Below, piece by piece: positions 16,245-17,531 of a stretch of 64,000 nt of DNA. Source of the DNA: Bradyrhizobium amphicarpaeae. Lineage in GTDB: Bacteria > Pseudomonadota > Alphaproteobacteria > Rhizobiales > Xanthobacteraceae. The notes under the pieces were generated by a model, which had not been told where the DNA came from, made no database searches, and worked only from the letters and a program-made list of their open reading frames with translations. Made by a program: the position numbers and the translations under genes. The stretch is from NCBI RefSeq assembly GCF_002266435.3, contig NZ_CP029426.2, forward strand, positions 3,502,001 to 3,566,000, read 5' to 3'. Position 1 is the stretch's first letter. Every line of letters starts with the position of its first letter.

Positions 16245-17330
16245 TTACGCTGTCCGCTCGTGCAACCCAGCGCGCTGGGCGTTGCGGCGGATTTCGACCG
16301 CGTCAGCAAGCTGCTCGAGCGTGGTTTTGGTGGTTGCCCAGTCGATGCAGCCATCGGTGATGCTCTGGCCGTAGGTGAGCGGCTTGCCCGGCACGACGTC
16401 CTGACGGCCGGCAATGAGATTGCTCTCGATCATCACGCCCATGATGCGGTTCTCGCCGCCGGAGATCTGGCCGGCGATGTCGGCCATCACGAGCGGTTGG
16501 TTCTCCGGCTTCTTGCTCGAATTGGCATGGCTCGCGTCCACCATCACCAGCGGTGCGGCACCGGATTTGGTCAGCTCGTTGCAGGCGGCCGCGACGCTTG
16601 CCGCGTCGTAGTTCGGCTTGCTGCCGCCGCGCAGAATGACGTGGCAGTCCTCGTTGCCCGCGGTCGAGGCGATCGCCGAACGGCCGAGCTTTGTCACCGC
16701 CATGAAGTGATGCGGATGCGAAGCCGACTTCACGGCGTCCGCTGCGATCCGCACATTGCCGTCGGTGCCGTTCTTGAAGCCGACCGGACAGGACAGGCCC
16801 GAGGCCAGCTCGCGATGGATCTGGCTCTCGGTCGTGCGCGCGCCGATCGCGGCCCAGGAAACCAGGTCGGCGATGTATTGCGGCGTCGTCATGTCCAAGA
16901 ACTCTGTGCCGGCGGGCAGGCCGAGATTGTTCACGGCCGAGAGCACGTTGCGCGCCAGCCGCAGGCCCTTGTTGATGTCGAAGCTGCCGTCGAGATCGGG
17001 ATCGTTGATCAGGCCCTTCCAGCCGACGGTGGTGCGCGGCTTCTCGAAATAGACCCGCATCACGATTTCGAGCTGGTCGGCGAGCTCTTCGCGCAAGTTC
17101 GCCAAGCGCTCGGCATATTCCAGCGCGGCCTTGGGGTCATGCACCGAGCAGGGGCCGACCACGACCAGCAGACGGTCGTCCTGGCCGGCGAGAATGGCGT
17201 GGATGGCGTTGCGCGCCGCCATCACCACGCGCGTCGCGGTGAGCGTGCGCGGGACTTCCCGCATCACCTCTTCCGGCGTGCTCAGCTCTTTCAGTTCGCG
17301 GATACGAAGATCGTCGGTCGTGCTCAGCAC
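16245..17330 (-). CDS. aroG: class I 3-deoxy-7-phosphoheptulonate (DAHP) synthase
   Basis: A 361-residue class I (AroFGH-type) enzyme joining phosphoenolpyruvate and erythrose 4-phosphate, the committed step to Phe, Tyr and Trp. Family motifs are VVVGPCSVHDP, PRTTVGWKGL, AGTEFLD and VMVDASHANSSK. The isozyme letter cannot be decided from sequence. Translation probably starts at GTG 17330, with CAGGAG seven bases upstream; a longer frame would run through the terminator hairpin of the upstream attenuator. The upstream leader indicates feedback through aromatic aminoacyl-tRNA levels. Confidence 0.95.
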   Translation of the reverse strand: MLSTTDDLRIRELKELSTPEEVMREVPRTLTATRVVMAARNAIHAILAGQDDRLLVVVGPCSVHDPKAALEYAERLANLREELADQLEIVMRVYFEKPRTTVGWKGLINDPDLDGSFDINKGLRLARNVLSAVNNLGLPAGTEFLDMTTPQYIADLVSWAAIGARTTESQIHRELASGLSCPVGFKNGTDGNVRIAADAVKSASHPHHFMAVTKLGRSAIASTAGNEDCHVILRGGSKPNYDAASVAAACNELTKSGAAPLVMVDASHANSSKKPENQPLVMADIAGQISGGENRIMGVMIESNLIAGRQDVVPGKPLTYGQSITDGCIDWATTKTTLEQLADAVEIRRNAQRAGLHERTA

Positions 17331-17364
17331 GGCGGGCTCCTGTTTGTTTCGAACCTGCCGGCCA

Positions 17365-17392
17365 ATAAAAAAGCCGCCAGGTCTGGCGGCTT
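17365..17392 (-). terminator. intrinsic terminator arm of the aroG attenuator
   Basis: On the minus strand a 10-base-pair stem (AAGCCGCCAG / CTGGCGGCTT, tight 2-base loop as written, larger in practice) is followed by a run of six T. It lies 35 bases before the GTG of the DAHP synthase. Its left arm is complementary to a segment inside the leader peptide, so terminator and antiterminator are mutually exclusive. Confidence 0.9.
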
Positions 17393-17414
17393 GTTCGGAC
17401 GTTTGCTGCAATTT

Positions 17415-17495
17415 TCAGATTGAGCGCGATCCTCCTGCCGCCAGCGAGCTGTCGTAGCTAAAGTACCAAAAATAGCTGGTGGCGACGGTGATCAT
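17415..17495 (-). CDS. aromatic amino acid leader peptide of aroG
   Basis: A 26-residue open reading frame, starting MITVATS and then reading YFWYFSY: three Tyr, two Phe and one Trp within seven codons (8-14). A ribosome waiting for any of the three aromatic tRNAs would stall here. Codons 5-7 form stem segment 1 (17475-17483) and codons 18-20 form segment 2 (17437-17444), which can pair either with segment 1 or with the terminator's left arm. No Shine-Dalgarno sequence is seen. The promoter placement suggests the mRNA starts at or within a base or two of the ATG. Confidence 0.88.
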   Translation of the reverse strand: MITVATSYFWYFSYDSSLAAGGSRSI

Positions 17496-17502
17496 GGAGG
17501 GG

Positions 17503-17531
17503 CATATAGCGCGCCATCGGCGGATTGTCAC
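17503..17531 (-). promoter_or_regulatory. promoter of the aroG leader
   Basis: On the minus strand GTGACA (17526-17531; five of six to TTGACA) and TATATG (17503-17508) are 17 bases apart, a near-ideal sigma-70-type promoter. Transcription would begin near 17495-17497, the first base of the leader peptide's ATG. Confidence 0.7.

Follow-up and report, generated by a model that had tools for sequence, protein, structure and literature searches.

The window, a stretch of 64,000 nt from Bradyrhizobium amphicarpaeae, carries a class I-alpha DAHP synthase gene preceded by a short, aromatic-rich leader open reading frame (ORF) and an intrinsic terminator hairpin. The entire leader-attenuator-gene unit lies on the minus strand, with the following parts:

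17526..17531, minus strand: -35 box GTGACA; this motif or a near-match occurs in most alphaproteobacterial loci
17503..17508, minus strand: -10 box TATATG (context GCTATA), ending 7 nt before the leader ATG
17415..17495, minus strand: leader ORF MITVATSYFWYFSYDSSLAAGGSRSI, 26 codons plus stop, probably leaderless
17479..17493, minus strand: arm 1, in the register of the predicted fold (17475-17483 is the alternative register)
17454..17474, minus strand: putative sensing codons 8-14, Tyr Phe Trp Tyr Phe Ser Tyr (TAT TTT TGG TAC TTT AGC TAC)
17437..17444, minus strand: arm 2, CTGGCGGC, pairing with arm 3 according to covariation and folding
17383..17390, minus strand: arm 3, GCCGCCAG, partner of arm 2 or arm 4
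17371..17392, minus strand: intrinsic terminator hairpin, AAGCCGCCA-gacc-TGGCGGCTT, with T run
17367..17380, minus strand: arm 4, CTGGCGGC, and T run
17337..17341, minus strand: Shine-Dalgarno sequence AGGAG of the DAHP synthase gene, placed by eye and from the anti-Shine-Dalgarno energies of the group
16245..17330, minus strand: class I-alpha DAHP synthase (aroG/F/H type), taken from a GTG start

The enzyme matches TIGR00034 with 531.5 bits (cut-off, 173.2; the scan used a longer N terminus), and a search of its own genome returned no second gene of this type. That genome also encodes a class II DAHP synthase at another place, and inspection by eye of the sequence upstream of it revealed no comparable leader. 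On the other side of the unit, 68 nt upstream of the leader ATG, lies the end of a gene that weakly matches the HdeD family (69 bits; cut-off, 189). The leader is preceded by the promoter-like sequence GTGACA-N17-TATATG (17531-17526 and 17508-17503), although a stricter promoter scan listed no site. Within the leader ORF, AGGAGGA (17430-17436) resembles a perfect Shine-Dalgarno sequence, but no start codon follows at a suitable spacing. Folding predictions place some of its bases in an extension of the 1:2 hairpin, or pair its GGA with the UCC before the terminator.

A sequence-only reading of this DNA had proposed an aromatic leader, an antiterminator arm and a terminator in front of the DAHP synthase gene, and each was recovered here, including the 26-codon leader with YFWYFSY at codons 8-14. 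We asked how often such a run would arise by chance among the short ATG-initiated ORFs on both strands of the window (n = 718) and in 5,000 dinucleotide shuffles of 400 nt of upstream sequence. The leader was alone among the 718 ORFs in having at least six aromatic residues within nine (two nested ORFs have five), and at least five were reached in 4 of the 5,000 shuffles. Short ORFs are frequent and a terminator alone would reduce expression, so one could picture a constitutive partial terminator behind an ordinary upstream ORF, with chance aromatics and no aromatic control. We regard this explanation as having practically no chance of being correct, because none of the 5,000 shuffles produced a run of at least six, which rules out a chance ORF, and because the codons and arms recur across bacterial classes.

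Leaders with at least four aromatics in nine residues were found at 91 of the 93 alphaproteobacterial loci collected, a group that comprises every such locus fetched and includes many near-copies; of the other two loci, one is cut by a contig end (L175) and one has a weak leader (L181). The betaproteobacterial and Xanthomonadales sets were selected for leader presence and are therefore uninformative on prevalence; betaproteobacterial loci without a leader exist (for example, L068, L074 and L075). When whole distinct leaders were counted, Phe, Tyr and Trp were all present in 54 of 59 alphaproteobacterial leaders, with Trp missing from the other 5, and in 10 of 10 from Xanthomonadales. The 41 distinct leaders of the beta set comprised 20 with all three, 20 without Trp and 1 without Tyr, the last being a mis-called frame (L036); in two leaders (L022 and L024), Trp lies outside the aromatic run. 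Some of the genomes outside the Alphaproteobacteria were assigned to the beta or Xanthomonadales group by likeness to relatives, and six assignments (L202, L203, L206, L207, L209 and L026) were made without a close named relative. Phe was encoded by TTT at 109 of 134 positions in the distinct alphaproteobacterial leaders versus 60 of 338 in the long ORFs of the window (TTC, 278 of 338), an excess that is descriptive because the leaders are related.

These counts bear on the amino acids to which the element responds. The absence of Trp from about half of the beta leaders and from a few alphaproteobacterial ones, together with the predominance of Phe and Tyr codons in the run, would fit a genuine switch that senses Phe and Tyr alone, with the Trp codon a passenger in an aromatic-rich run. 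We consider this unlikely, since Trp is retained in the large majority of distinct alphaproteobacterial leaders and in every Xanthomonadales leader, and since the Trp codon of the window leader (codon 10) falls inside the stalling range. A response to all three aromatic amino acids is the likely reading, and the codon make-up of the leader hints at which amino acids are monitored in each lineage.

Downstream of the aromatic run, the terminator that had been proposed at 17365-17392 was found as a hairpin (17392-17371) followed by a T run, with a folding energy of -15.3 kcal/mol (z = -4.85). The claim that an upstream segment pairs perfectly with the left arm of the terminator also held: arm 2 (17444-17437) is fully complementary to arm 3 (17390-17383), and its pairing with arm 3 and that of arm 4 with arm 3 are mutually exclusive. 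The sequence-only reading had stated that it would be refuted if the YFW codons or the pairing were not kept in relatives. This check did not refute it: the codons, the antiterminator and the terminator all proved conserved across the Alphaproteobacteria and were found again in Burkholderiales and Xanthomonadales, and compensatory changes accompany them.

Covariation was assessed in an alignment (A1) of 59 of the 148 leader-bearing loci (91 alphaproteobacterial, 11 Xanthomonadales and 46 betaproteobacterial). Excluded were sequences more than 90% alike, elements longer than 175 nt, three loci with a dubious start (L036, L053 and L192), two removed by name (L020 and L040), and 12 whose terminator was missed by the script; by eye, all 12 show a longer-loop hairpin and a T run. 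In A1, helix 2:3 was paired in 89.6% of cells (slid versions, 16 to 53%), and four of its seven pairs had changed on both sides (shuffled mean, 1.8), a count reached in 1 of 500 shuffles. Other measures for this helix were less distinctive: its nine further pair types were reached by 54 of 500 shuffles and exceeded by a +1 slide (10), and its eight cells changed on both sides were equalled by a +2 slide. Pairing is lost at the two outer positions in 20 and 17 of the 59 sequences, and some leaders carry arm mismatches (for example, L012, L014 and L018). Individual compensated arms 2/3, drawn partly from outside A1, include TTGGCGG/CCGCCAA (L138), CCGGCGG/CCGCCGG (L061) and GAGGCGG/CCGCCTC (L023); arm 4 has changed in these as well, so that three arms move together. 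In L090 and L091, arms 2/3 read CTGGCAG/CTGCCAG and arm 4 stays CTGGCGG, which gives a G-U pair in the terminator. Helix 3:4 was paired in 95.7% of cells (slid versions, 21 to 64%), with two pairs changed on both sides, a number that 172 of 500 shuffles also attained. RNAalifold, run on the full alignment, gave a consensus containing the terminator alone; without arm 4, the consensus was helix 2:3 for the complete, alphaproteobacterial and betaproteobacterial sets, whereas the five Xanthomonadales sequences preferred a 1:2-type hairpin unless their start was cut off.

The pairing of arm 1 is the least conserved part of the element. Eight of nine positions can indeed pair between the first of the earlier proposed segments (17483-17475) and 17445-17437. 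Folding predicts a different register, however, with leader nucleotides 10-16 paired to 53-59 and with CC/GG and GAUC/GAUC extensions; this places arm 1 at about 17493-17479. In the window the resulting 1:2 hairpin is strong (z = -3.1; 0 of 200 shuffles). Among the 57 of the 59 A1 sequences used for arm 1 and geometry counts, arm 1 stood out from mononucleotide shuffles (p < 0.1) in 25 leaders, and folds of the alignment up to arm 2 contained no common 1:2 hairpin in either the alphaproteobacterial or the betaproteobacterial set.

The geometry of stalling was modeled with a ribosome whose footprint extends 14 nt to either side of the first P-site base. With the modeled ribosome at any of codons 2 to 14, all eight pairs of 2:3 formed in the nascent RNA up to arm 3; five pairs were left at codon 15, two at codon 16 and none from codon 17 on. 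Codon 14, the last aromatic one, is hence the last in the model to leave arm 2 fully free. Measured from the first base of the final aromatic codon, arm 2 starts at exactly 12 nt in 31 of 57 leaders (closer in 10, farther in 16). Twelve nucleotides corresponds to the first base outside the modeled footprint, so a ribosome stalled at the last aromatic codon would just leave arm 2 free. With the modeled ribosome at the stop codon, the 1:2 hairpin formed behind it, and RNA up to arm 3 that lacked arm 1 folded into 2:3. The full-length fold was free of the terminator for a ribosome up to codon 12, and the terminator was the minimum-energy fold at codons 13 and 14, where antitermination would therefore have to be kinetic. 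The formation of 2:3 with a ribosome at codons 2 to 7 as well counts against the proposed mechanism. In the absence of a ribosome, RNA up to arm 3 preferred 2:3 over 1:2, so that the basal state would depend on 1:2 forming first; the ribosome-free full-length fold was 1:2 plus the terminator.

The sequence-only reading had further suggested that the leader peptide is translated from a leaderless transcript, and promoter spacing and the lack of ribosome binding sites both speak for this. In every one of the 91 alphaproteobacterial leaders, 6 to 10 nt separate the best -35/-10 pair from the start codon (6 to 7 nt in 84), with the leader start of L007, L085 and L121 moved to an upstream ATG chosen by its -10 spacing; shuffles place such a pair at 5 to 10 nt in 8% of cases. 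An anti-Shine-Dalgarno energy of -4 or lower was found for 2 of 91 alphaproteobacterial leaders versus 83 of 91 DAHP synthase starts. Because of the -10 spacing of 6 to 10 nt in all 91 leaders and the missing Shine-Dalgarno sequence in 89 of them, the leader ORF in Alphaproteobacteria is probably leaderless. A start 5 to 10 nt after a -10 box was seen in 8 of 11 Xanthomonadales and 9 of 44 beta leaders. The beta leaders also lack a Shine-Dalgarno sequence (energy of -4 or lower in 2 of 46), and 25 of 45 have a well-scoring promoter 22 to 39 nt upstream. The accessible part of a transcription start site study of Bradyrhizobium japonicum (PMC4842269) reports 192 start sites exactly at start codons and describes a GCTATA extended -10, which is present in the window promoter; the TGnTA motif that the same part describes before leaderless mRNAs was not seen at the window leader.

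Leaderless attenuation has a precedent in Sinorhizobium meliloti trpL-trpE(G), described in the accessible parts of two reports (PMC7298713 and PMC10117765) as a ribosome-dependent attenuator whose transcript starts at the leader ATG. Both trpL and the putative attenuator studied here are alphaproteobacterial, and trpL acts through the ribosome as the latter is predicted to do; trpL differs in sensing Trp, in its 14-amino-acid leader and in the gene it precedes. As portrayed there, the trpL RNA and peptide also have roles in trans, which raises the alternative that our leader mainly yields a trans-acting product, either the short RNA (about 125 nt) released at the terminator or the 26-amino-acid peptide, with attenuation in cis being secondary. 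What is retained, however, is the run of aromatics together with the arms and terminator, while the ends of the peptide differ between lineages, and we judge a chiefly trans-acting leader to be improbable, more so than a switch blind to Trp.

We then turned to the distribution of the gene and of the element. Few Alphaproteobacteria carry the class I-alpha DAHP synthase gene: it was present in 8 of 289 genomes of the class (own genome included; two matches near E = 1e-3 excluded), 39 of 297 of the order (one match near E = 1e-3 excluded) and 11 of 119 of the family, but in 111 of 117 of the genus. A covariance model (R1) built from 59 elements preceding DAHP synthase gave 55 matches at E <= 1e-6 in 398 Pseudomonadota genomes, and 48 of these lie just upstream of DAHP synthase, as judged from gene positions and tblastn on fetched loci. 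The remaining matches precede pheST (five) or pheA (two); one pheS and both pheA genes were named by search and the other four pheS genes by eye. We take these seven to be known Phe attenuator sites, and since such sites are absent from the R1 alignment, they act as a positive control. Not every genome with the enzyme has the element, since the enzyme family scored above its cut-off in 225 of the 398 genomes; the element was found in 23 of 23 alphaproteobacterial genomes of this sample with the gene above cut-off, many of them related to the training set.

In 199 genomes of the order, R1 at E <= 0.01 had some match in 107, many of them to the terminator alone, and we therefore used only the 23 matches below 1e-8. 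Twenty-two of these precede DAHP synthase, at least four from genomes outside the training set (G253, G285, G292 and G327), and one (2.4e-9) precedes tyrS; to judge from genome labels, the element search appears to have missed no gene-bearing genome in this sample. In the own genome, a second R1 match (24.9 bits) lies partly within the 3' end of an ORF; most of the others cover the terminator part alone, and two, at 18.0 and 16.1 bits, are weak but full-length.

Two further leaders came to light beside these matches. One, in the same order, is rich in Tyr (for example, MIKTAATFVYFYYVTSIPAAA or MSKNLTIISAVYYYATDISAAAFL) and precedes a divergent second tyrosyl-tRNA synthetase (TIGR00234; L243:1501-1622 and L251-L273, family f41). 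Runs of the YFYY, VYYY and VYYF types are kept in 23 of 24 loci of this tyrS clade (the exception, L274, is ambiguous), and none of the six loci fetched for the other tyrS paralogue has such a run. Five of the tyrS leader stretches were inspected; all contain a GC-rich hairpin, and two (L263 and L266) are without a clear T run. An ORF that follows a Phe-rich leader (L304:267-1799) fuses chorismate mutase/prephenate dehydratase with the beginning of a DAHP synthase domain that belongs to another class of the enzyme; the fetched stretch stops within this ORF.

A quick protein tree (137 rows) set the alphaproteobacterial enzymes on one side of a branch with weak support (66). The clade that holds them includes 9 of 10 Xanthomonadales rows (support, 99), and the leader-bearing beta enzymes are scattered over several places. 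This placement and the rarity of the gene suit a joint acquisition of gene and leader in Alphaproteobacteria.

Several known systems share parts of this arrangement. The pheA and pheST genes of gammaproteobacteria are controlled by Phe attenuators, which likewise combine an aromatic-rich leader with a terminator and were found by R1 although it was not trained on them; unlike the DAHP synthase leader, the seven pheA and pheST leaders contain mainly Phe, with a single Tyr at most, lack Trp and stand before other genes. Membership in the Rfam family Phe_leader (RF01859) was rejected, with a window score of 24.1 bits against a gathering threshold of 55, and an Rfam scan of the window element returned no family at threshold. 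One leader answers to several amino acids in the ilvGMEDA and thr attenuators of E. coli, which our element would resemble in this respect and which differ in sensing branched-chain amino acids or Thr and Ile and in the genes that they precede. The uORFC-13-1 motif, as far as it is presented in the accessible text of PMC8632094, is a proposed upstream-ORF attenuator before the DAHP synthase gene aroF, with a ribosome binding site and Phe codons, in Acholeplasma and unassigned environmental sequences. It shares with our element the proposed upstream-ORF attenuation of DAHP synthase; we set it apart, going by that description, because our element occurs in another phylum, has little Shine-Dalgarno sequence, contains all three aromatics and has another structure. 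Attenuation has also been predicted from a screen and a database before Shewanella aroF and Vibrio aroA(I-alpha)-tyrA (PMC2659441 and PMC1173090); these predictions concern DAHP synthase too, and the accessible parts name Tyr for aroF and describe no tri-aromatic leader. Our literature search returned no description of a tri-aromatic element in these bacteria, and an earlier prediction may exist in Vitreschak et al. 2004 or in Merino's attenuator database. The element thus appears to be a mechanistically classical attenuator, in a widespread version apparently answering to all three end products.

Taken together, the locus has (i) a leader ORF with a run of end-product codons; (ii) an intrinsic terminator between this ORF and the gene; and (iii) an antiterminator that excludes the terminator and that, with a modeled ribosome, is free under stalling. 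From its sequence, the element is very likely an attenuator. In the mechanism that we propose, transcription would start at, or a few nucleotides from, the leader ATG. When Phe, Tyr and Trp are all plentiful, the ribosome would reach the stop codon, arms 1 and 2 would pair behind it, and arm 3, left free, would form the 3:4 terminator. When any of the three is scarce, the ribosome would stall on codons 8-14, within the loop of the 1:2 hairpin; arm 2 would then pair with arm 3 upon its synthesis, no terminator would form, and the gene would be transcribed. We estimate a probability of about 0.88 that this is a ribosome-mediated transcription attenuator that adjusts the class I-alpha DAHP synthase to the availability of charged Phe-, Tyr- and Trp-tRNA. 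We lean, with less assurance, toward the fuller picture of a three-input OR gate, in which a shortage of any one of Phe, Tyr and Trp would turn on a single DAHP synthase, with a leader that is leaderless in Alphaproteobacteria, a leader-gene unit kept across three proteobacterial classes, and a retuning where Trp codons have been dropped.

E. coli has three DAHP synthase isozymes, each tuned to one amino acid. An OR-gate leader on a single enzyme would, if true, be the counterpart to this plan, with one sensor monitoring all three end products at the entry step of aromatic synthesis in Bradyrhizobium and its relatives. The linkage of element and gene spans the Alpha-, Beta- and Gammaproteobacteria, and the element offers a natural test case for leaderless initiation in attenuation.
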